The position numbers were made by a program, and so were the translations under genes. A DNA stretch of 64,000 nt from Candidatus Gastranaerophilales bacterium (lineage in GTDB: Bacteria > Cyanobacteriota > Vampirovibrionia > Gastranaerophilales > Gastranaerophilaceae), in assembly GCA_944324305.1 (NCBI GenBank), contig CALUVV010000005.1, positions 1 through 64,000 of the forward strand, read 5' to 3'. This document shows positions 25,852-62,358 of this stretch, in pieces. Each line of letters begins with the position of its first letter. Position 1 is the stretch's first letter. A model generated the notes under the pieces. It saw only the letters and a program-made list of their open reading frames with translations, was not told the DNA's origin and did no database searches.

Positions 25852-25878
25852 AAAAGGCGGATATAAACCCGCCTTTTA
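25851..25878. terminator. Bidirectional terminator
   Basis: AAAAAGGCGG and CCGCCTTTT arms with a 9-nt loop between convergent genes. Confidence 0.85.
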
Positions 25879-26145
25879 AATTTCAATACTTAGATTTTGC
25901 TGCTTGTTTAATTCATTCAACTCTTTATTAACTTTCAAAAAATTATACGATGCAAATAACGAACTAAGAAACCCAAAAGTTATAAGTGCAAGACCTGCAA
26001 CATTATTTTTAACAGGCTGCGACAATCCAAGCATTCCTAATCCAGACGCCCCTAGAAGCATAGATAAATTTCGTTTTTGTTTAAGTTGCTCCCGACGATT
26101 ATTTACAGCATTTACATTTCCAACACCTACAGCACTAATAGACAT
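25876..26145 (-). CDS. Small membrane protein behind MRC leader element
   Basis: The 89-aa product starts MSISAVGVGNVNAVNN and has two hydrophobic segments (LSMLLGASGLGMLGL and VAGLALITFGFLSSLFASYNF) and a coiled acidic/basic end. Start at 26145 follows AAAGGGAAAATC. Its 5' region carries one of five copies of the dispersed leader element (26164-26294). Function unknown. Confidence 0.65.
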   Translation of the reverse strand: MSISAVGVGNVNAVNNRREQLKQKRNLSMLLGASGLGMLGLSQPVKNNVAGLALITFGFLSSLFASYNFLKVNKELNELNKQQNLSIEI

Positions 26146-26163: not shown

Positions 26164-26229
26164 TTATATATCCTGCACACTTATATAAAAAGTCCTTGCC
26201 CTTAAATTATTGCTACTCGGGCATCGCAT
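26164..26229 (-). CDS. Upstream ORF of MRC leader element, copy A (21 codons)
   Basis: Begins MRCPSSNN at the end of the GGATA repeats and ends 18 nt before the ATG of the 89-aa gene. Like copies C and D it has Asn7-Asn8 and Phe14. Too short to prove by composition; the case rests on recurrence in five copies. Confidence 0.4.
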   Translation of the reverse strand: MRCPSSNNLRARTFYISVQDI

Positions 26230-26294
26230 CCTATCCTATGAGACAGTATAAGCGGATTTCAGACATTCTTAAATTCATTTTTACATTTCTTAAT
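26214..26294 (-). promoter_or_regulatory. Dispersed MRC leader element, copy A (GGATA x2)
   Basis: Core matches the other four copies: CCGCTTATACTGTCTC, repeats of GGATA and GGATGCGATGCCCGAGT. This copy has only two pentamer units, versus four in the others, and keeps only the second TGTAA box (AATGTAAA). Confidence 0.8.
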
Positions 26295-26331
26295 ACTTGT
26301 TTATGCTAAAGTCCTTTATGAGGAGAAGATT

Positions 26332-28136: not shown

Positions 28137-29267
28137 ATGGAAACCGAAGTAAAGGAAAAAGAATTCTCAGGAAAAGTTACACTTCTTGATAAATACATTT
28201 TAAGACAGGTAATTGAAATGTTTATTATGGGAGTGTGCGTTTTTACATCAATAATCTTTGCTTCCGATACTTTTATTACACTAATCAAACAGATATCACT
28301 ATTCGGTATACCTTTTAAGGTTGCACTAATGATGATTATCTTAAACCTTCCGCAGGTTATCGTAATGACAATTCCTATGGGGGTTTTGCTTGCTACGGTT
28401 ATGACACTTAACGGCTTAAGCTTAAAATCCGAAATTACGGTAATGAGAGCTTGCGGTATAGGTTTAAACAGAATTGCAAAACCTATTTTTATCTTTGCAC
28501 TTGTCATGTCTATTTGCAGTTTCATAATAAATGAAACAGTTGTACCCGTAATGACAAAACAGTCAAAAGATTTGGCTTTATGGTCACTGGGGCAGAAAAA
28601 TATTCCGGAAGGCAAACAAAATTTTGTATTTAAAGAGCTTAACGACGGCGGAAGTATTAAAAGACTATTTTACGTAGGTTTTTGCGAAGATAAAATTTTG
28701 CATAATATTACGGTTCTTGATACTTCAAAAGACGGAACAATTCAGGTTTTACAGGCTGATGAAGGGAAGACATCTCCCGAAGGATGGGAATTTCAAAAGG
28801 GTGCCGTTTACACGGTTGACGATGACGGAAAAATTTTAAATACAACTTTATTTGACAGTTCAATTGTTAAATTCGGACTGGATATGTCAAAGGAATTAAA
28901 CAAAAACGTTGCCAAAGAAATGAATTTTACAAAACTTATTGACTACATAAGACATAATCATATTGATGACAAACAGAGAAATGCAATTCATATTGAATTA
29001 TATGATAAACTTGCGCTGCCTTTGACAACAATAGCACTTGTTTTAATAGGTGTTCCTCTTGCAATTACTCCGCCGAGAGTACGATACAACAGAGGTTTCT
29101 TATTCAGCATTTTAATCATATTTGCATACTATCTGATAAGAGCACTTTCAATTTCATTTGGAGAAGCCGGAACGTTACAGCCGTTTTTGGCAGCATGGAT
29201 GCCAAATATTGTTTTAACAATTATCGGTACAATGTTGTACTATAAAAAGGTATACACAATTGAATAG
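28137..29267 (+). CDS. LptF/LptG family permease
   Basis: The 376-aa protein has three N-terminal membrane helices (VIEMFIMGVCVFTSIIFA, ALMMIILNLPQVIVMTIPMG, PIFIFALVMSICSFII), a periplasmic beta-jellyroll region (about 130-270) and three C-terminal helices (LTTIALVLIGVPLAI, FLFSILIIFAYYLI, IVLTIIGTMLYY). This is the YjgP/YjgQ pattern of the inner-membrane part of the LPS exporter, consistent with an outer membrane. Only one of the F/G pair is present here. Start is leaderless (see promoter). Confidence 0.9.
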   Translation: METEVKEKEFSGKVTLLDKYILRQVIEMFIMGVCVFTSIIFASDTFITLIKQISLFGIPFKVALMMIILNLPQVIVMTIPMGVLLATVMTLNGLSLKSEITVMRACGIGLNRIAKPIFIFALVMSICSFIINETVVPVMTKQSKDLALWSLGQKNIPEGKQNFVFKELNDGGSIKRLFYVGFCEDKILHNITVLDTSKDGTIQVLQADEGKTSPEGWEFQKGAVYTVDDDGKILNTTLFDSSIVKFGLDMSKELNKNVAKEMNFTKLIDYIRHNHIDDKQRNAIHIELYDKLALPLTTIALVLIGVPLAITPPRVRYNRGFLFSILIIFAYYLIRALSISFGEAGTLQPFLAAWMPNIVLTIIGTMLYYKKVYTIE

Positions 29268-29341
29268 GAGCGTAGCCGCTCCACCCGACACACAGGTACT
29301 GCATAAACTTGAACAGTCTAAACTAAAGAAGGAGCGTAGCC
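29266..29341 (+). repeat. Dispersed repeat, copy 1 (hairpin GGAGCG/CGCTCC)
   Basis: Starts with the perfect stem GGAGCG-TAGC-CGCTCC, then CACCCGACACACAGGTA..., CATAAACTTGAACAG..., CTAAACTAAAGAA and again a GGAGCGTAGCC half. About 70 bp match the copy at 35789-35860. It lies between lptF/G and the next gene. Confidence 0.85.
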
Positions 29342-29353
29342 ACATCCAAAGAC

Positions 29354-29926
29354 ATGAAAAATAATTTATTCACAAACAAAAGGTTAAACGATTATGATTT
29401 AAATATTTTAAATGACAACTCATTTAAAGATTTAGATGATAAAACTTTGAAATTAGAATGTCTGATTGCGGAAAAAGAAGAAGCTCTTGAAAATTTGAAT
29501 AACAAAATCAAAGGTGCAGAACTTTTAGGAAAGCTTCTTGATGTAATGGATTTAAAAATTCAGGCAAAGCAGATTGAAAACGAACTTACAGACCTGAAAG
29601 AACAGTACTCTAAAAGAAATATAACAGAAAAACTTGCTGACGCCGTAACTCCTAAAAAAAGCAAGCCTAAACTTTCCCCGATCAGACGTTTAGCACGTTT
29701 TGTTTCAAGAAAAATTATTGCAAAAATGTCAACAAAAGTTCAATCTATTTTGGACTTAAGCGACTCTTTAGACACTTTGACAAGTATAAATGAAAACGTT
29801 GATGAGCTTATTGCAATGAAAGTTCCTTACGGAGAAACAAAAGCAAATTACGAAAAGCTCACAAACTATCTTTACCGTGCAAACAGAATTCATTCGCAAA
29901 TCAGCAAAAAAATGCAAAGCTTTTAA
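29354..29926 (+). CDS. Coiled-coil hypothetical protein
   Basis: The 190-aa protein has a strong heptad-like region (DDKTLKLECLIAEKEEALENL ... KQIENELTDLKEQYSKRN) and a basic middle (SPIRRLARFVSRKIIAKMS). No membrane helix or known domain is seen. The site before ATG is poor; the nearest GGAG is 20 nt away, inside the dispersed repeat. Weak expression or coupling to lptF/G is possible. Confidence 0.65.
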   Translation: MKNNLFTNKRLNDYDLNILNDNSFKDLDDKTLKLECLIAEKEEALENLNNKIKGAELLGKLLDVMDLKIQAKQIENELTDLKEQYSKRNITEKLADAVTPKKSKPKLSPIRRLARFVSRKIIAKMSTKVQSILDLSDSLDTLTSINENVDELIAMKVPYGETKANYEKLTNYLYRANRIHSQISKKMQSF

Positions 29927-32241: not shown

Positions 32242-32583
32242 CTATACTTTTTCCTGTTTCTCTATATCAAAAATACTTTTATCCATAGGAATATGTGAAG
32301 CTGCATTATTTTCATTTTGCTTGTTTACTTGTCCTTCTTCATTCTTGATATGAGAGGCATCTGCAATTTGTTTGCGCATATTCTCATCTTGTATTGAATT
32401 TAAAAATCTCTTACCCTCTTTTTTGGCAGCAAAAACTGATAAATCTTTATCATTTAAAGCGGCTAATCTTGATAAATCAACGGTATCAGATTTTTTATAA
32501 TTCGTTTTTCCTGTCAAACGTCTAATCTTTGCCGGTTCAAAATTCGGATCATACTGAAATAAATCTTTAACTGTAATTGACAT
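32242..32583 (-). CDS. Hypothetical protein behind MRC leader element
   Basis: 113 aa from ATG 32583 (SITVKDLFQYDPNF), site GGAAAGGA at suitable distance; an ATG at 32592 is too near to that site. Polar and charged, no membrane helix. Copy B of the leader element lies upstream (32600-32741). Confidence 0.65.
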   Translation of the reverse strand: MSITVKDLFQYDPNFEPAKIRRLTGKTNYKKSDTVDLSRLAALNDKDLSVFAAKKEGKRFLNSIQDENMRKQIADASHIKNEEGQVNKQNENNAASHIPMDKSIFDIEKQEKV

Positions 32584-32599
32584 AACAACCATCCTTTCC

Positions 32600-32665
32600 T
32601 TATAAACTTCCTGACAAGTAAATAAAAAAATTTTCCCGAAAAATATTGCTATATCGGCATCGCAT
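32600..32665 (-). CDS. Upstream ORF of MRC leader element, copy B (21 codons)
   Basis: Starts MRCRYSNIF and contains FFIY at 13-16, matching the SFIY of copies C and D with different codons. Ends 16 nt before the gene start. Confidence 0.4.
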   Translation of the reverse strand: MRCRYSNIFRENFFIYLSGSL

Positions 32666-32741
32666 CCTATCCTATCCTATCCTATGAGGCAGTATAAGCG
32701 GATTTCAGCCCATTTAAAAGTCGTTTTTACATTTCGTTACA
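32653..32741 (-). promoter_or_regulatory. Dispersed MRC leader element, copy B (GGATA x4)
   Basis: Contains TGTAACGAAATGTAAA (two TGTAA boxes 10 bp apart), GGCTGAAATCCGCTTATACT, four GGATA units and GGATGCGATGCC. Confidence 0.85.
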
Positions 32742-32764
32742 ATTAAAAAATATTCAAATTTGCT

Positions 32765-35604: not shown

Positions 35605-35788
35605 AATTAATTATCTCCTTTACTAATTATATTCATGCCACATTATTGTTATAACATCGTTTTTTGAAATTATTAAAAAAATAAACAAAAAATTAATAAT
35701 TGCGCGAACGAGCTGAGGCTGAAGCGCTTTTGCGATTGTGTTGAAAACACAAGAGCAAAACGCGGAATTGCCGTTAAACGCGAGTGAG

Positions 35789-35860
35789 CAGGAGCGTAGC
35801 CGCTCCACCCGACACACAGGTATGCATAAACTTGAACAGCCTAAACTAAAGAAAAAGCGC
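35789..35860 (+). repeat. Dispersed repeat, copy 2
   Basis: Same block as at 29266-29341 beginning with the GGAGCG-TAGC-CGCTCC stem, then CCACCCGACACACAGGTA, TGCATAAACTTGAACAG and CTAAACTAAAGAA. Confidence 0.85.
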
Positions 35861-35872
35861 AGCCGCGTGCAT

Positions 35873-35903
35873 AAAAAAGACGGGTTAAATGCCCCGTCTT
35901 TTT
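35873..35903 (-). terminator. Terminator of 105-aa secreted protein gene
   Basis: AAAAAGACGGG and CCCGTCTTTTT arms, just after the stop. Confidence 0.85.
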
Positions 35904-47180: not shown

Positions 47181-47203
47181 ATTAATTTACCTCCGGTAAA
47201 TTA

Positions 47204-47621
47204 GCAGCTAAGCAGTTAAGAAGCTAAGCAGCTAAGTTATTTAACCTTTCCTTCTATTTTATTTTTTAAAGCATTTATTCTATAAGATAAAACATTACAT
47301 CTTTCATGTAATTTATTGTCACATACTATAAAACCCAAAGCTTCACATATAGATAAACAAGCTTCTGTCTCTGCTAAAGAAGCAGCAGACATATTTAAGA
47401 AATGAGAAAAATCTTTTGCTGATTTCCTTGTCTTATCTTCTGCAATATTTAACGCAACTGAAACAACCGCACGTTTCATTTGAGCTTTTAAATTAAATTC
47501 TTCAGATTTAGGCAGTAAATCTGCAACTTTATATATATCTTGAATTAACAATATTGCATCATTCCAAATATCTAAATTTTTATACACTCTTAGCTGCCCC
47601 GCTTCTTAACTGCTTAGCCGC
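47204..47621 (-). mobile_element. 418-bp TIR-bounded unit with a four-helix-bundle gene
   Basis: 33-bp terminal inverted repeats (47204-47236 and 47589-47621; 29 of 33 bases agree; each contains GCTAAGCAGTTAAGAAGC) enclose exactly one ORF: the stop abuts the left repeat and the GTG is 1 nt inside the right repeat. TA dinucleotides flank both outer edges. The right repeat forms the last 13 codons of rmlB. No transposase. Confidence 0.6.
47237..47587 (-). CDS. Four-helix-bundle protein (S23/IVS family)
   Basis: 116 aa: YKNLDIWNDAILLIQDIYKVADLLPKSEEFNLKAQMKRAVVSVALNIAED ... FLNMSAASLAETEACLSICEALGFI. This is the 23S rRNA intervening-sequence (S23) protein family, related in fold to the Avd protein of diversity-generating retroelements. 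GTG start inside the repeat, weak site. Probably a passenger of the TIR unit; function of the family is unknown. Confidence 0.85.
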   Translation of the reverse strand: MYKNLDIWNDAILLIQDIYKVADLLPKSEEFNLKAQMKRAVVSVALNIAEDKTRKSAKDFSHFLNMSAASLAETEACLSICEALGFIVCDNKLHERCNVLSYRINALKNKIEGKVK

Positions 47622-48575
47622 TACATTATTCATCCATTCCTGATTATTTAAATACCAGTCAATAGTAATTTTTATACCTTCTTCAAAAGTTAAAGACGGT
47701 TTCCAGCCGAGTTCGGATTGAATTTTGTCGTTACAAATCGCATAACGCCTGTCATGCCCGAGCCTGTCATCAACATATTTAATTGAAGTTTCGTCTTTGC
47801 CCATAGCCTCAAGTATTAAATGCGTAATTTCCATATTAGTTTTTTCGTTATGTCCGCCTATGTTGTAGACTTCGCCGACCCTGCCTTTATGTAAAACAGT
47901 ATCAATTGCGGCACAGTGGTCATAAACGTATAACCAGTCACGAACGTTCATTCCGTCGCCGTAAACGGGAACTTTGTCACCTTTAAGCAATTGAGAAATA
48001 AAAAACGGAATAAGTTTTTCGGGATATTGATAAGGTCCGTAATTATTCGAACATCTGGTTGTCAAAACAGGCATATTATATGTTTCATGGTAAGCTCTGA
48101 CAAGCATATCGGCAGAAGCTTTTGATGCGGAATACGGACTGTTCGGAGCAAGCGGAGTGGTTTCCATGAAATAACCCGTTTTTCCCAAAGTTCCGTAAAC
48201 TTCATCAGTTGAAACCTGCAAATATCTGTCCGTTTTAAATTGCCTTGCCGCCTGAAGCAAATTCAAAGTACCTTTAACGTTCGTTTCTATAAAGATTTCA
48301 GGTCCGGTAATTGAGCGGTCAACATGAGATTCTGCGGCAAAATTCACAACGGCATCAACCTGTTCAACAAGCTCGGGAACAAGTTTTTTATCACAAATGC
48401 TGCCGTGAACAAATGTATAATTCGGGTTATCTTTTACATCATTAAGATTTTCAATATTTCCCGCATAAGTCAAAGCATCCAAATTTATAATTTTATAATC
48501 GGGATGACTTTTTAACATATGTCTTACAAAACAGCTTCCGATAAATCCAGCACCGCCCGTTACAAGTATTCTCAT
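47580..48575 (-). CDS. rmlB: dTDP-glucose 4,6-dehydratase
   Basis: 331 aa. VTGGAGFIGSCFVRHML at the N-terminus, STDEVYGTLG, YSASKASADMLVRAY with catalytic Tyr-Lys. Second step to dTDP-rhamnose. The last 13 or so residues (AAKQLRSGAAKSV) are encoded by the inverted repeat of the inserted unit and replace the natural end. Overlaps rmlC start by 4 bp. Confidence 0.95.
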   Translation of the reverse strand: MRILVTGGAGFIGSCFVRHMLKSHPDYKIINLDALTYAGNIENLNDVKDNPNYTFVHGSICDKKLVPELVEQVDAVVNFAAESHVDRSITGPEIFIETNVKGTLNLLQAARQFKTDRYLQVSTDEVYGTLGKTGYFMETTPLAPNSPYSASKASADMLVRAYHETYNMPVLTTRCSNNYGPYQYPEKLIPFFISQLLKGDKVPVYGDGMNVRDWLYVYDHCAAIDTVLHKGRVGEVYNIGGHNEKTNMEITHLILEAMGKDETSIKYVDDRLGHDRRYAICNDKIQSELGWKPSLTFEEGIKITIDWYLNNQEWMNNVAAKQLRSGAAKSV

Positions 48576-52984: not shown

Positions 52985-53362
52985 CTAAACGGCCGTTTTC
53001 ATATTTTTTGTCAGTATTACATCATTGTAACCATCTCCATCCTCATCAATAAATTCCTTTGAGGTATGAATTTCTTTACCGCTGTCATCTGCTTCATAAT
53101 AATGATTAGTTACGGAAGTAAGTTTTTCTTTGCCATTCTCACCGGTTTTATAAACAGTCTCTTTATTTAGAATTCCGTTTATATATGTTTTCTTTGTATA
53201 TGTTCCGTCAGCGTTCATCTTAACAATTTCTTTTTTATTGTCAGAGCGCGAACCGTTAAACAAATTATCAATCTTGTCATGAAAACCTGCATTAACAGAT
53301 TTTTGATTAACCACCTGAGGTTTCTGCGTTCCGTTTACACCGTCGAAATTAATAAGTCCCAT
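52985..53362 (-). CDS. Tagged protein with Ca-loop motif (INFDG)
   Basis: 125 aa from ATG 53362 (MGLINFDGVNG). The end has an EF-hand-like loop DEDGDGYND. Copy C of the MRC leader lies upstream, and its whole 5' region (to the ribosome site) is a near-copy of that of the next gene (53617-54108). No membrane helix. Function unknown. Confidence 0.7.
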   Translation of the reverse strand: MGLINFDGVNGTQKPQVVNQKSVNAGFHDKIDNLFNGSRSDNKKEIVKMNADGTYTKKTYINGILNKETVYKTGENGKEKLTSVTNHYYEADDSGKEIHTSKEFIDEDGDGYNDVILTKNMKTAV

Positions 53363-53386: not shown

Positions 53387-53449
53387 TCATAAATTGCACA
53401 TGTATATAAACGACATTTCCTGAAAATTATTGACACTCGGGCATCGCAT
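53387..53449 (-). CDS. Upstream ORF of MRC leader element, copy C (20 codons)
   Basis: MRCPSVNNFQEM then SFIY; ends with TGA 24 nt before the gene start. Identical in protein to copy D. Confidence 0.45.
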   Translation of the reverse strand: MRCPSVNNFQEMSFIYMCNL

Positions 53450-53525
53450 CCTATCCTATCCTATCCTAGGAGACAGTATAAGCGGATTTCAGCCATCTTT
53501 AAACTCAACTTTACATTCCGTTACA
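53434..53525 (-). promoter_or_regulatory. Dispersed MRC leader element, copy C (GGATA x4)
   Basis: TGTAACGGAATGTAAA, GGCTGAAATCCGCTTATACT, four GGATA-type units (one mutated to CTAGG form) and GGATGCGATGCCCGAGTG. Confidence 0.85.
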
Positions 53526-53576
53526 TTAACATATTAAATAACGCGCATTACAAAGAAATTTAACACATGATAATTT

Positions 53577-53616: not shown

Positions 53617-54108
53617 TTATATAGACCATTCTGTCGAAGCATTATTTTCAGAGCCATATACATTACTCATTTTAAGCTCATCGGTTTTAAATTTTTGATT
53701 TAACTTATGTATGGTTTCATTTCCGGTCCAGTCGCTTTCAACTATCTCATCATAATATCCGTCATTATCAGTATCTCTGTATTCTTTTGTATTGCTTGAT
53801 TTAGATGTCGGATGATAAAATTTAATTGAAATTGCTTCTGAGTTGTCAAAATTACCGTCACTATTTCTATCGGCAAATACAGATGTTCTAATCACCTGCC
53901 CCATGCTGTTATAGGCTGTTTCCACTTTTTTTCCGTTTTCTATAACTGTCTCAACTTTAGAAACTTTACATAGCTCTTTAACGGAAACAGGTTTAATAGT
54001 AGCAAACAGTGAAGATAGATCCAACTGTTCAGTTTCAGCTTTTTGCTTACTTGATTTCGGCGGAATATCCTGATTACCTCCGATACCGTTTATACCTAAA
54101 AATCCCAT
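53617..54108 (-). CDS. Ca-loop repeat protein behind MRC leader
   Basis: 163 aa from ATG 54108 (MGFLGINGIGGNQDIPP). Two EF-hand/thrombospondin-type loops: DRNSDGNFDNSE (about 100-111) and DTDNDGYYDE (about 125-134). It is related to the downstream gene by 5' region and by the final loop. No membrane helix. Confidence 0.7.
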   Translation of the reverse strand: MGFLGINGIGGNQDIPPKSSKQKAETEQLDLSSLFATIKPVSVKELCKVSKVETVIENGKKVETAYNSMGQVIRTSVFADRNSDGNFDNSEAISIKFYHPTSKSSNTKEYRDTDNDGYYDEIVESDWTGNETIHKLNQKFKTDELKMSNVYGSENNASTEWSI

Positions 54109-54130: not shown

Positions 54131-54193
54131 TCATAAATTGCACATGTATATAAACGACATTTCCTGAAAATTATTGACACTCGGGCACCGCAT
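54131..54193 (-). CDS. Upstream ORF of MRC leader element, copy D (20 codons)
   Basis: Same peptide as copy C, one synonymous base difference (CGG for CGA). Ends 22 nt before the gene start. Confidence 0.45.
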   Translation of the reverse strand: MRCPSVNNFQEMSFIYMCNL

Positions 54194-54267
54194 CCTATCC
54201 TATCCTATCCTATGAGACAGTATAAACGGATTTCAGCCATTTTTAAACTCAACTTTACATTTCTTAA
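54177..54267 (-). promoter_or_regulatory. Dispersed MRC leader element, copy D (GGATA x4)
   Basis: GGCTGAAATCCGTTTATACT, four GGATA units and GGATGCGGTGCCCGAGTG. The first TGTAA box is replaced by the stop region of the upstream gene. Confidence 0.85.
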
Positions 54268-54671
54268 TTAACATAAAATTCAGCTGATGCAAAAATTTTG
54301 TGCGGATTGTCTTTCGAATAAACTCTCATGAAATAATACCCGCTTTCATTTAGTACAAAGTAGTCTGTAAAATAATTAATTTCTTCATCTTTCAATCTTA
54401 TATTTCTTGTTTGAATGAGATTATATCCGAATTGCCCGTATTTATTATCTTTTTTTACTATTTGAATATATAGATATCTGGACTCCACTTTTTCAGGCAT
54501 AAGAATTACATAATATATTCTTGAATTTGCCTTAAAAACAGTTGAATAATCATAAATATTTTTTTCGGTAATCGGGTATTTATTAAAAAGTATTGAAGCC
54601 CTGTCACGTACACAGGCTGTTGTTGTAAGTATCAGAAATATTGCCAGACAGGTTAATATTAATTTTTTCAT
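54264..54671 (-). CDS. Putative lipoprotein
   Basis: 135 aa with a lipobox in the signal peptide (KKLILTCLAIFLILTTTAC|V, Cys near 20). Mature part is beta-rich with many Tyr (YYVILMPEKVESRYLYIQIV). It starts inside the end of the TPR gene (4-bp overlap), so the two are co-translated. Likely an outer-membrane or periplasmic partner of the TPR protein. Confidence 0.75.
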   Translation of the reverse strand: MKKLILTCLAIFLILTTTACVRDRASILFNKYPITEKNIYDYSTVFKANSRIYYVILMPEKVESRYLYIQIVKKDNKYGQFGYNLIQTRNIRLKDEEINYFTDYFVLNESGYYFMRVYSKDNPHKIFASAEFYVN

Positions 54672-58186: not shown

Positions 58187-58963
58187 ATGGAAATTATTTT
58201 ACCTGTAATTGAAGAATTTAAACAAATTGAAGATGTTAAAGCAATAGCTCTTGCAGGTTCAAGAGCAGCTAACAGCGATGATGAAACATCAGATTTTGAT
58301 ATCTATATTTACTCGGATAAAGAAATTGATATTCAAAAAAGAACAAAAATTGCCCAACAATTTTCTGACCGATATGAGATTAATAATTGTTTCTTCGGCC
58401 CCGGTGATGAATGGTTTTTGAAAAACTCGTCCGTTCAGATTGATTTGATGTACAGGTCAAGAGAATGGATGGAGAATTCCATTGAAAATACCTGGGTTAA
58501 ACATTACCCTTGTGTAGGCTACTCAACCTGTTTTGTATTTAATATTAAAAATTCCGAAATCATTTATGACCCCGAAGGCTGGTACAAAAATTTACAAGAA
58601 AAAGTTTGTACGAATTATCCTGACGAACTTTCGAAAAATATCGTAAACAATAACCTGCCGCTTTTAAAAAATAAAATAGCCGCATCTTTTTACGAACAGG
58701 TCGAAAAAGCTTTAAAAAGAAAAGATTATGTAAGTCTAAACCACAGAATTTCCGCGTTTCTCGCAAGTTATTTTGATATACTTTTTGCGGTAAACAAAGT
58801 TCTTCACCCCGGAGAAAAAAGACTTGTACAGTACACAAAACTGCATTGCAAAAAAATTCCCCAAAACTTTGAAGAAGATATAAATAACTTAACAAGATAT
58901 CCGCTTGAAAATACTTTGGAAATACTTTCAAGACTGAACGAAAATCTTTTAAAAATTATTTAG
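58187..58963 (+). CDS. DUF4037-type nucleotidyltransferase
   Basis: 258 aa. GSRAANSDDETSDFDIYIYS holds the GS...DxD nucleotidyltransferase metal site near residue 24-43. A long helical part follows. Family members are related to aminoglycoside nucleotidyltransferases, but substrate is unknown. TAAAAT ends 6 nt before ATG and TTGGTT is 17 bp up, so it is a leaderless start. Overlaps the convergent gene by 8 bp. Confidence 0.8.
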   Translation: MEIILPVIEEFKQIEDVKAIALAGSRAANSDDETSDFDIYIYSDKEIDIQKRTKIAQQFSDRYEINNCFFGPGDEWFLKNSSVQIDLMYRSREWMENSIENTWVKHYPCVGYSTCFVFNIKNSEIIYDPEGWYKNLQEKVCTNYPDELSKNIVNNNLPLLKNKIAASFYEQVEKALKRKDYVSLNHRISAFLASYFDILFAVNKVLHPGEKRLVQYTKLHCKKIPQNFEEDINNLTRYPLENTLEILSRLNENLLKII

Positions 58964-60446
58964 TTTCTTTTAATGTTGAAGACTTTATTATTTTTATAAG
59001 GTCTTCAACTTTTACACCAAGACCTTTTTCATAAGCCTCCGCATTTTCGGTAATTTCCCGAATAAGTGCTTCAGCACGTTTAGGTTCTACGCCCATTGAC
59101 ATATCATATATAAAGTTTGTGTATTTATACTTCGGTAAATTTTTATCCCTGTAAAAGCTCAGCCATCTGCCTGAAGGGGAATGCGTGTCCGTGCAGCCCC
59201 AATCCATTTCAACCAGACCGCGCCCCTCAATAGTTCCTTTTGGTTTTAGACCTCTTTCAAACAGCATTTGTCTTATAGCTGTCATTTCTTCCACATTACA
59301 ACCGCAATTGGAATCAAGTAAATCACGAATTATTTTTTGTTCGAATTCGGGATTTTCTTGTGCAAATCCTATCAGTTCTTTCGCAAAGGCAGTATTTCTT
59401 CCTTTTTCAAACTCAAGATTAAATACACCATCGCAGTCATCAGGTTTTGCATATTTTTTAATATTTTCGAGCAGTTTTGCGAGTAACTCTGTTTTTTGTT
59501 CAGGGTTTTCAAGAAGCATTATTTCTTTTTTTACAGAATGAATTAATTTATTCATTTCCTTCCCTGACTTACCTTCCATTGCCGCAAGGTTAGCATTAAT
59601 TAATTCCAAACCTTTAAGCACGGGGATCGGCTCATCAGCTTTTCTCAAAATAACGCCCATATCTTCAAGTTTAGCCCGAATAATATTTTTTTCTTCATTA
59701 CTCATGCCCATAGCACTTGTAATATACCTGCCGTCTTTTTCAAATACTAAACGCATACTCTTTTCTTTGCCGTCCGCTGACTTTTCTTTATAGAACCATG
59801 CCCGTTTAGGTTCACGGTCAGAACCTGATTTCGGAATAAATTCACCTTCTTCTAATAAAGTTGTCCTGCCGTCGGCAAATCTTTCTTCGATTTTCAGGTT
59901 TCCTTTATTATCAAGGGATTTTACGGTAGTTGATAATAAATCTCCGTCTTTATATTCTTTTATTTCCACACCTGCTTTGTGTTCGTCTTTTATAATATCA
60001 ACAGTTTCAGAACCGTTCTTTAAAGTTCCGTCAGGGTTTGTAAATTTTGCGGGAACATCCGGAGTATTTTTAGTTTTAGGGGGAACCTCTCCGCCTGTTT
60101 CTCCGCTTGATTTAGGGTTAACATCATCGGATGCACCTTTTCCTTTAGACGAAACATCATTTATAATTTCTCCGCCTTTTTTCTCGCCGGCTTCTGCTAT
60201 ATCATCTGCTGATTTTTTAGCACCGCCAAGCAATTTTTGCACGCCTTCCCCAAGGTGGCCTTTACGTCCCGCAATGCCAAGCCCGATTACTGCAGCCAAA
60301 GCCGTTGCTCCGATCATATATTTTGCGGCATTTGATTTTTCTTTATCAGCAGGCTCAACCTGTTTTTGAGTTTCGTCTTTTCTTGCTTCCTGCTGTACTT
60401 GTGTCGGTGTTTCAACGCCCTTAAATGCAATTTTATCAATAGACAA
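58956..60446 (-). CDS. Large tagged membrane protein (IAFKG) behind MRC leader
   Basis: 496 aa from TTG 60446 (AAGGAG 9 nt away): MSIDKIAFKGVETPTQ. A hydrophobic segment (AAKYMIGATALAAVIGLGIAG) near 40-60, then a disordered Gly/Lys/Pro linker, and a helical C-terminal region (ELIGFAQENPEFEQKIIRDLL). Family unknown. Copy E of the leader element is upstream. Confidence 0.7.
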   Translation of the reverse strand: MSIDKIAFKGVETPTQVQQEARKDETQKQVEPADKEKSNAAKYMIGATALAAVIGLGIAGRKGHLGEGVQKLLGGAKKSADDIAEAGEKKGGEIINDVSSKGKGASDDVNPKSSGETGGEVPPKTKNTPDVPAKFTNPDGTLKNGSETVDIIKDEHKAGVEIKEYKDGDLLSTTVKSLDNKGNLKIEERFADGRTTLLEEGEFIPKSGSDREPKRAWFYKEKSADGKEKSMRLVFEKDGRYITSAMGMSNEEKNIIRAKLEDMGVILRKADEPIPVLKGLELINANLAAMEGKSGKEMNKLIHSVKKEIMLLENPEQKTELLAKLLENIKKYAKPDDCDGVFNLEFEKGRNTAFAKELIGFAQENPEFEQKIIRDLLDSNCGCNVEEMTAIRQMLFERGLKPKGTIEGRGLVEMDWGCTDTHSPSGRWLSFYRDKNLPKYKYTNFIYDMSMGVEPKRAEALIREITENAEAYEKGLGVKVEDLIKIIKSSTLKETK

Positions 60447-60476: not shown

Positions 60477-60524
60477 TTATATAAAAACATGAAGATAAAA
60501 AAAATTGATACGTCCGCACCGCAT
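60477..60524 (-). CDS. Upstream ORF of MRC leader element, copy E (15 codons)
   Basis: Starts MRCGRIN; Asn7, Phe9 and Phe14 agree with the other copies. Ends 30 nt before the TTG start. Confidence 0.35.
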   Translation of the reverse strand: MRCGRINFFYLHVFI

Positions 60525-60600
60525 CCTATCCTATCCTATCCTATGAGACAGTATAAAAGGGTTTCAGCCTATTTGAAATTCAAATTTACATTCTGTTACA
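60511..60600 (-). promoter_or_regulatory. Dispersed MRC leader element, copy E (GGATA x4)
   Basis: TGTAACAGAATGTAAA, GGCTGAAACCCTTTTATACT, four GGATA units, GGATGCGGTGC. It abuts the stop codon of the TPR gene at 60601. Confidence 0.85.
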
Positions 60601-62358
60601 TTAAGAAATAGCTCTTATCATTTCCTGTGCTTCTTCACATTCGGGGAAAGCATCAACAACTTTATCCAATGCTGCAAGAGCTGCATCTTTATCATTTAAT
60701 TTTTCATAACATCTTGCGCTGTTTAGCAGGAGATTTACATTTAAAGGATTTTGATCAAGGAGATGTTTGAAAATATTATTTGCCTGTTCATAATCTCCGA
60801 GCTCAAAGTAACAAAGACCGAGCATATTTTCGCAGTCGTGTGTTTTTTCCAGTTCGTAAGATTTCACAAGGTACATTTTTGCATCTTCAAATTGCCCCTG
60901 CAAAAATCTGATCTTCCCTGCAATAAAAAACATAAAACCGTTATTTGCATCATGCTCAAGAACATGTTCAATTTGTTCGTAAGCCTTATCCAAATCTTTT
61001 AAATGAATTTTATTCAAAGCTGAAAAGCCCAGCGCATCAGTATCATGCGGTTTAATTTCCAGAGCTTTTTGATAATATTCGTCAGCCTTCTCAAAGTTCG
61101 TTGTCGAATGAAGATAATTTGCATACTCAAACAGAATATCAAAATCATCAGGAGCAAGTTTCAAAGCCTGATTAAATTCATCTTCCGCATAATCAAACAG
61201 TCTTTTGCTCAAATACAATACGCCCAGATCCTTATGAGCCGGAGCGAATTCGGGATTAAGCTCAACAACTTTTTTCAAAATCTTTTCGGCTTTATCCATG
61301 TCATCTGTTTTAACGCACAAATGCGCAAATTCATAATAAATTTCAAAAGACACATTGCCTTGAATAAGAATTTTTTCATAAAGTGCTTTTGCATTAGCAA
61401 ACTGATTAATTTTCACATAAATGCTTGCCAGTTTTCTGAGCATGGAAACTGATTTCGGATTTAACAAAACCAGATGAGCAAGAATTGCTATAGCACTTGA
61501 ATATTCGCCAGCCGCATCATAGCAGCAGGCAAGATTGTATTGAAAATTAGTTTTTTCGGGATGATGCGAAATCAGCATTTTGTAATGTTTTATAGCTTCT
61601 TCAAGCTGATTTGATTTAACTTCCGATAACGCAAGAGCAACAAGGTAGTTATCCGACTGTTCGATAGAATATGCTTTTCTGAAGTAATCACAAGCTTCTT
61701 TATGTTTGTTTTGAAGCTGAAGGATTGACGCGATATTAAAATAAGTTATCGAATTATCAGGGTCATATTCACTTGCTTTCAAAAAGTTTTCATAAGCTTT
61801 TTCGAGATTTCCCACTGTTACATAACATGTTCCAAGATTGTTATAAAGCTGTGAATGTTCGGGGTTTAACTCCAGTGCTTTTTCCAAATATTGCACTGCT
61901 TCTTCAAACTTTTTCAAAGCCATGCAGGCAGTACCTGCTATATAATAGACAGTATAATCATCCTTTACGTAATCAAGAGCCTTTACAACGGTATCCACGG
62001 CTTTTTGCGGTTCTTTATTTTTAACATATACAACAGCAAGATTTTTGTATGCATCAACATAACTGCTTCTTAATCTCAAGACTTCCGAATAAGCAGAGAT
62101 TGCATGCAGATAATCATCCTGATTATCATAACAGTTTGCAAGATAAAACCAGCCTGTTGCATCATCGTTATATTTTACAACAGTTTCAAATACAGCCTGT
62201 CCCTCTTTAAACTCATTAAGATTTATATGGCATAATCCCAAAAGTTTTAAAGCTTCCACATCTTTTTCTTCATCACTGATTAATGCTTTTAATTCTTCTT
62301 TAGCTTCCGCATATTTTTTATTATTTATAAGCTCGTTAATTCTGTCTAAATTTTCCAT
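60601..62358 (-). CDS. Cytosolic TPR-repeat protein
   Basis: 585 aa from ATG 62358, without signal peptide; TPR repeats throughout (YKNLAVVYVKNKEPQKAVDTV, YYIAGTACMALKKFEEAVQYL, LYNNLGTCYVTVGNLEKAYENF). TATAAT ends 6 nt before ATG (62365-62370), a leaderless arrangement. Distinct from the exported TPR protein at 54.7 kb. Confidence 0.85.
   Translation of the reverse strand: MENLDRINELINNKKYAEAKEELKALISDEEKDVEALKLLGLCHINLNEFKEGQAVFETVVKYNDDATGWFYLANCYDNQDDYLHAISAYSEVLRLRSSYVDAYKNLAVVYVKNKEPQKAVDTVVKALDYVKDDYTVYYIAGTACMALKKFEEAVQYLEKALELNPEHSQLYNNLGTCYVTVGNLEKAYENFLKASEYDPDNSITYFNIASILQLQNKHKEACDYFRKAYSIEQSDNYLVALALSEVKSNQLEEAIKHYKMLISHHPEKTNFQYNLACCYDAAGEYSSAIAILAHLVLLNPKSVSMLRKLASIYVKINQFANAKALYEKILIQGNVSFEIYYEFAHLCVKTDDMDKAEKILKKVVELNPEFAPAHKDLGVLYLSKRLFDYAEDEFNQALKLAPDDFDILFEYANYLHSTTNFEKADEYYQKALEIKPHDTDALGFSALNKIHLKDLDKAYEQIEHVLEHDANNGFMFFIAGKIRFLQGQFEDAKMYLVKSYELEKTHDCENMLGLCYFELGDYEQANNIFKHLLDQNPLNVNLLLNSARCYEKLNDKDAALAALDKVVDAFPECEEAQEMIRAIS

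Follow-up and report, generated by a model that had tools for sequence, protein, structure and literature searches.

The dispersed element that precedes a set of small genes in Candidatus Gastranaerophilales is a composite promoter, and it is neither a mobile repeat nor a structured leader RNA. From upstream to downstream, it consists of an 18 bp tandem site of the HLR1 type, a σ70-type promoter (P1), an array of 5 bp repeats, and a second promoter (P2). We analyzed the element in a stretch of 64,000 nucleotides (the window) from contig 5 of a 2.2 Mb genome in 16 contigs. A gene in the window shows 54%–89% protein identity to genomes of the Gastranaerophilales, a non-photosynthetic gut lineage of the Cyanobacteriota. 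Close relatives of this gene are also held in public records titled Fusobacterium sp. CAG:439, Clostridiaceae, and Heliobacteriaceae, which are probably mislabelled Gastranaerophilales.

Architecture and distribution of the element

A preliminary description of the window had reported near-identical blocks before five small genes, at 26214, 32653, 53434, 54177, and 60511, all on the minus strand. The five copies are present at these places: the 20-nt core is found five times at up to 3 mismatches and never in 100 shuffled sequences. It is exact only at 32691 and 53475, and the remaining three copies carry 1, 1, and 3 mismatches. Near-identity describes the copies at 53434 and 54177, which agree at 97% over 153 nt; the others are 60%–89% identical to the reference copies. 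The blocks do not end 16–30 nt before the start codon, as had been thought; the conserved DNA extends into a promoter-like second module and ends 25–39 nt before the start codon. The original term "leader element" fits part of the conserved DNA and is only partly right, because promoter makes up half of that DNA and the analysis showed no conserved RNA fold.

In all five copies, every feature is on the minus strand. In the copy at 53434, the HLR1-like tandem site AATGTAACGGAATGTAAA (53510–53527) has 0 mismatches to WWTGTAAM-NN-WWTGTAAM. It is followed by a P1 −35-like TTTAAA (53498–53503, assigned from the family profile) with a 17 bp spacer to the −10 TATACT (53475–53480), by the array (TAGGA)4T from the predicted P1 start site (53448–53468), and by a promoter-like P2 of class A (TCAATAATTTTC-N-TTTATATA; 53402–53433; profile and pattern match). 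The gene behind it (MGLINFDGVNG..., 52985–53362) starts with an ATG at 53362. The copy at 54177 has a site whose first box is degenerate (TTAATTAAGAAATGTAAA, 54254–54271, 3 mismatches), a −35 at 54242–54247, a −10 TATACT at 54219–54224, 4.4 units of GGATA at 54192–54213, and a class A P2 (54146–54177, pattern match) before the gene MGFLGINGIGG... (53617–54108). At 60511, the site AATGTAACAGAATGTAAA (60585–60602) has 0 mismatches and is followed by the −35 (60573–60578), the −10 TATACT (60550–60555), 4.4 units (60523–60544), a class A P2 (60477–60508, pattern match), and a 496 aa gene with a TTG start (SIDKIAFKG..., 58956–60446). The copy at 32653 likewise has a site with 0 mismatches (ATTGTAACGAAATGTAAA, 32726–32743), a −35 at 32714–32719, a −10 TATACT at 32691–32696, 4.4 units at 32664–32685, a class A P2 at 32618–32649, and a gene of 116 aa (32242–32592). 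The copy at 26214 combines a site with a degenerate first box (26280–26297, 3 mismatches), a −35 at 26268–26273, a −10 TATACT at 26245–26250, a short array of 2.4 units (26228–26239), a class A P2 (26181–26213, pattern match), and a gene of 89 aa (25876–26145). No Pfam domain was found in the five products (in the 496 aa protein, for the first 472 aa).

A sequence profile search of the genome found 16 copies, which stand well clear of the noise (E values of 7.5e-6 and 3.8e-4), and a control pattern gave no match. Fifteen of the 16 lie upstream of a co-oriented open reading frame, with the start codon mostly 101–125 nt from where the −10 begins; for two copies, the automatic count of start codons also gives an earlier alternative, at 44 and at 65. 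The suggestion that the copies form a regulon, to be abandoned if most copies in the genome lay away from genes or were oriented at random, stood up to this comparison, and the same architecture was found again in the family. The element is present in about half of the family genomes in each of two samples (33 of 60 and 146 of 288), and the copy count per genome ranges from 0 to 29; the large searches used stricter filters, which makes the counts lower bounds. In other families of the class, none of 48 sampled genomes carried it.

The only copy of the 16 with no downstream open reading frame (C2:266227–266251) has a GAATA array, a σ28-like P2, and, some 130 nt downstream, a hairpin resembling a terminator; it is possibly a small RNA or the remnant of a lost gene. 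The window holds other repeats as well: 40-nt inverted repeats, 85% complementary, around a 116 aa open reading frame (47197–47628, with the frame at 47237–47587); a dispersed repeat in two copies with the near-palindrome GGAGCGTAGCCGCTCC (29251–29357 and 35775–35880); and a 54 bp tandem repeat in at least 4 copies (1–270).

The pentanucleotide array

The preliminary description had listed (GGATA)n among the motifs of the element. The repeat is there, in about 4.4 copies in four of the window elements and 2.4 in that at 26214, but it is an interchangeable 5 bp array and not a fixed motif. In 131 of 135 elements, the array begins 3–6 nt after the −10, which is at the predicted start site. Other elements hold ATAGC, ATAGA, ATATG, GTATG, or TTATG units at this place, and most arrays are homogeneous inside. 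Unit types swap between copies and genomes, and sometimes inside one genome and one gene family; genes of the MGLSAGQAR type carry AGGAT, AGCAT, or ATGGT arrays. A second short 5 bp repeat (GATGC, GGGGC, or GGTGG) often follows. The motif GGATGCGATGCC, described at the outset as common to all copies, is partly one such case; it is exact in three window copies and is replaced by GGTGC in those at 54177 and 60511.

Across the 135 elements, the array has 1.8 to 15.6 units, mostly 4–5. Paralogous promoters whose 55-nt upstream flanks are 95%–98% identical differ in unit number (4 versus 7, 5.2 versus 3.4, 9 versus 5.2, and 5.2 versus 7.2), a variation between paralogues rather than in one gene across strains of one species. 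The unit changes from copy to copy and from genome to genome, most arrays are uniform inside, and the number of units varies; the array therefore appears to be prone to slippage, with repeated slippage at one fixed place.

A simple repeat that varies in copy number between two predicted promoters is the arrangement of the hmw type. In Haemophilus influenzae, 7 bp repeats lie between promoters P2 and P1 of hmw1A and hmw2A, and more repeats give lower expression (PMC8262952). By analogy, we regard hmw1A as the nearest experimental parallel: in both cases, a simple-sequence repeat separates two promoters and forms part of the 5′ UTR (here predicted) of the transcript from the upstream one. The present arrays differ in that their 5 bp units are of several kinds, are anchored at the predicted start site, and do not overlap the −10; in that genomes across a family have them at many loci; and in that a predicted response-regulator site lies upstream and the second promoter is predicted to be of a different σ class. 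At sabA of Helicobacter pylori, the repeat is a homopolymer T tract upstream of the promoter, whereas the array here is a predicted transcribed pentanucleotide. The two systems share a repeat tract in the promoter region, which at sabA tunes an adhesin gene (PMC4081817) and is here only proposed to tune.

In the same composite promoter, the array could instead have a fixed function within the initially transcribed sequence, its spread in copy number being only tolerated. The array might then act in promoter escape, in σ-dependent pausing at overlapping −10-like TANNRT hexamers, or in the stability of the mRNA 5′ end. The anchoring of the array at the predicted start site fits this reading, as does the clustering at 4–5 units, which is tighter than expected of a rheostat that slips freely. 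Every recurrent unit also retains a TA step (NTAKV), which produces overlapping TANNRT or TANNTT hexamers; however, the unit types number only six and each differs from another by a single step, and so the retention could be due to chance, and the copy number ranges from about 2 to 16. We consider a fixed array rather unlikely, with roughly one chance in four of being correct, and favor an array that changes by slippage.

The HLR1-type site and P1

A profile of 37 distinct copies places the conserved blocks of P1 at WTGTAACRAAATGTAAA, TTTNAA, GCTGAAAYCC within the 17 bp spacer, and TATAMT. The earlier reading of TATACT as −10-like holds, with a weak −35 (TTTNAA) at 17 bp. A σ54 promoter was rejected by eye, as the GG-to-GC spacing falls short by one base and lacks conservation.

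Two TGTAA boxes exactly 10 bp apart, which had been likened to a tandem activator site, are seen in the copies at 53434, 32653, and 60511; in those at 26214 and 54177, the first box is degenerate (ATTAA), with 3 mismatches to the 18 bp consensus. The likeness is strengthened by two results: the boxes match WWTGTAAM-NN-WWTGTAAM, which is HLR1, the motif of cyanobacterial RpaB (KTTACAWW-N2-KTTACAWW; PMC13421787), in reverse complement, and RpaB is encoded in the genome. Of the 135 elements, 99 have a site with 0 mismatches and 118 one with no more than 1, and the best match in shuffled upstream DNA has at least 3. Most of these elements were found with a model built on HLR1-bearing copies, which inflates the perfect fraction outside the subset found by the array only. 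As the model contains the HLR1 boxes, the fair figure is that of this family subset, which involved no selection on HLR1 and in which 15 of 21 sites are perfect. The fraction in this genome is lower, at 5 of 16 copies (3 of 5 in the window). TGTAA pairs are spaced by 10 bp in 108 cases and by 11 bp in none. Tandem sites of the WalR/YycF or PhoB type have an 11 bp period between half-sites, and were rejected on this ground.

The predicted site spans about −58 to −41 from the predicted start, which fits only approximately the range of −66 to −45 in which HLR1 activates in cyanobacteria (PMC13421787). The genome encodes four regulators of the OmpR family. Only one of them passes the cut-off of the RpaB equivalog model (NCBIfam NF045944; 363 bits against 330), and two others score 204–209 bits, below the cut-off. 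Since there are three further regulators, two of them with such scores, another regulator could bind the site. Related regulators bind TGTAA-like repeats, and another member of the OmpR family (RpaA-like) might be the activator in place of RpaB. The 10 bp period and the 18 bp consensus are those of HLR1, and with the single regulator above the cut-off they lead us to regard an activator other than RpaB as unlikely.

RpaB remains the preferred candidate. The match to the NblS-RpaB regulon of cyanobacteria includes the 18 bp motif, its 10 bp period, its position upstream of the predicted start site, and the presence of RpaB. In contrast to that regulon, the host is a non-photosynthetic gut bacterium, the predicted targets, small genes of which most have no known domain, are not photosystem genes, and a repeat array and a second promoter are joined to the site. 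RpaB and NblS were reported to be retained in Melainabacteria, where RpaA was noted as well, and their role was left open in 2013–2014 (PMC3787301, PMC4040986). In the open-access literature, we found neither the element nor an RpaB regulon in this group.

The second promoter, the downstream genes, and a model

The P2 that follows the array falls into two classes. Class B has the form TAAAG-N15-GCCG, which is the σ28 consensus; it occurs in 23 of 96 elements when matched loosely (1.5 in shuffled sequences) and in 11 of 96 in the strict GCCG form (0.4 in shuffled sequences). TAAA-N15-GCCGATAA is accompanied by a σ factor of the FliA type (FliA_WhiG, 243.7 bits against a cut-off of 189.6), and the flagellar proteins FlhA, FliE, FliF, and FliH are also encoded. 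Class B resembles FliA promoters in its TAAA-N15-GCCG-like sequence and in the presence of FliA/WhiG, and differs from them in being preceded by a separate RpaB-type promoter and a repeat array. Apart from the full-length flhA (C1:369300), the genome has a second gene of the FlhA family (C11:46522–47541) whose match to FlhA is confined to the C-terminal half, the cytoplasmic part, with no membrane region matched.

Class A has the form KCAAY..TTT-N-TTTATAWA with fixed spacing. It also stands alone before other small genes, without P1, and is therefore an independent module; the pattern search gave 31 real matches, some of them double counts, against 8 with a reversed control pattern. At eight loci, the stand-alone form (GCAATTWTTT...TTTATAWA) has neither P1 nor array, and these promoters are possibly a separate alternative-σ regulon. 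Class A is probably read by an alternative σ factor other than that of class B; a SigF-like factor is present in the genome. A count of P2 with a different regular expression left 35 of 135 elements unclassified, and the shares of the two classes are therefore lower bounds.

The downstream genes are small and mostly uncharacterized, and a Pfam search of 14 of their products gave nothing above the gathering cut-off. Genes of the MG[LM]xAxQAR type sit behind a class B P2, including one (L337) that the regular expression left unclassified and that reads as class B by eye. Their products have conserved ends and a variable center, a layout like that of flagellin and flagellar axial proteins, the likeness seen being one of layout. 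Comparison of the MGLSAGQAR proteins with solved structures gave only chance matches of the coiled-coil type and was discarded as a guide to their identity. Many paralogous prepilin-like genes (FTLAEVLVTLGIIGVVSAMTVPSLMQNHQRKTYVTQLHKVYNE...) are scattered through the genome.

The region between P1 and the gene could act as RNA. In most copies in this genome, the predicted 5′ UTR contains four AGGAU units, which might serve as a sequence-specific site of a CsrA-like AGGA type, in anti-Shine-Dalgarno pairing, or as a two-layer G-quadruplex. AGCAT, AATAG, ATATG, ATGGT, and ATGTT occupy the same place in other elements, also within one genome and gene family, and because such swaps remove the GGA or the GG tracts, we dropped these three readings as very unlikely; a reader of one particular GGATA sequence, in RNA or DNA, is disfavored. 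TRAP-like UAG triplets were tried separately and fail for ATATG and GTATG units. That the sequence between P1 and the gene is conserved would also suit a riboswitch-like cis-regulatory leader. Of the five leaders, however, two fold worse than nearly all shuffled sequences, two are unremarkable, and only one is better; Rfam gave no match at the gathering score in the window, and the conserved downstream part occurs alone as P2, which together make a structured leader highly improbable. A mobile or REP/MITE-type repeat lying upstream of genes by chance would explain the many and variable copies per genome, but can be dismissed almost completely, as the copies share neither common ends nor terminal inverted repeats, conservation is confined to the promoter-like blocks with variable bases between them, the copies are co-oriented with genes at a narrow distance, and no exact match to the array was found in viral contigs.

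The model that we favor, and hold to be moderately probable as a whole, is that of an RpaB-activated P1 with array-tuned output that was added upstream of an independent P2. RpaB would bind the tandem site and activate P1, whose −35 is poor. Transcription from P1 would start at or within one base of the first unit, and the transcript would thus begin with the array. As units are gained or lost, between about 2 and 16, the output of P1 and the distance between P1 and P2 would change, and the result would be a heritable, gradual tuning of each gene that leaves the reading frame untouched. P2 would act as an independent promoter, σ28-like before the MG[LM]xAxQAR family and some other genes and of the other class before the rest, and the P1-array module would bring a gene already expressible from P2 under RpaB control and make it mutable as well.

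A wider proposal, which we put forward only tentatively and judge less likely than not to be correct, is a tuning system of the whole family in which repetition itself, and not the sequence of the unit, is conserved, and in which arrays anchored at start sites and replaced wholesale link an RpaB-responsive promoter to flagellar-σ and other promoters. An array of interchangeable units that appears prone to slippage and recurs at predicted start sites of many loci is an unusual architecture, one that would join two-component control, σ factor switching, and heritable variation. If the proposal is true, each gene of a large set of exported or surface proteins would drift in expression independently of the others. 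The known task of RpaB and NblS is control by light, and both were reported to be kept in relatives of cyanobacteria that lack photosynthesis. The element provides a concrete candidate regulon for RpaB in these relatives, in which, on the wider proposal, a regulator best known for photosynthesis genes would control genes directed at the host or the cell surface.
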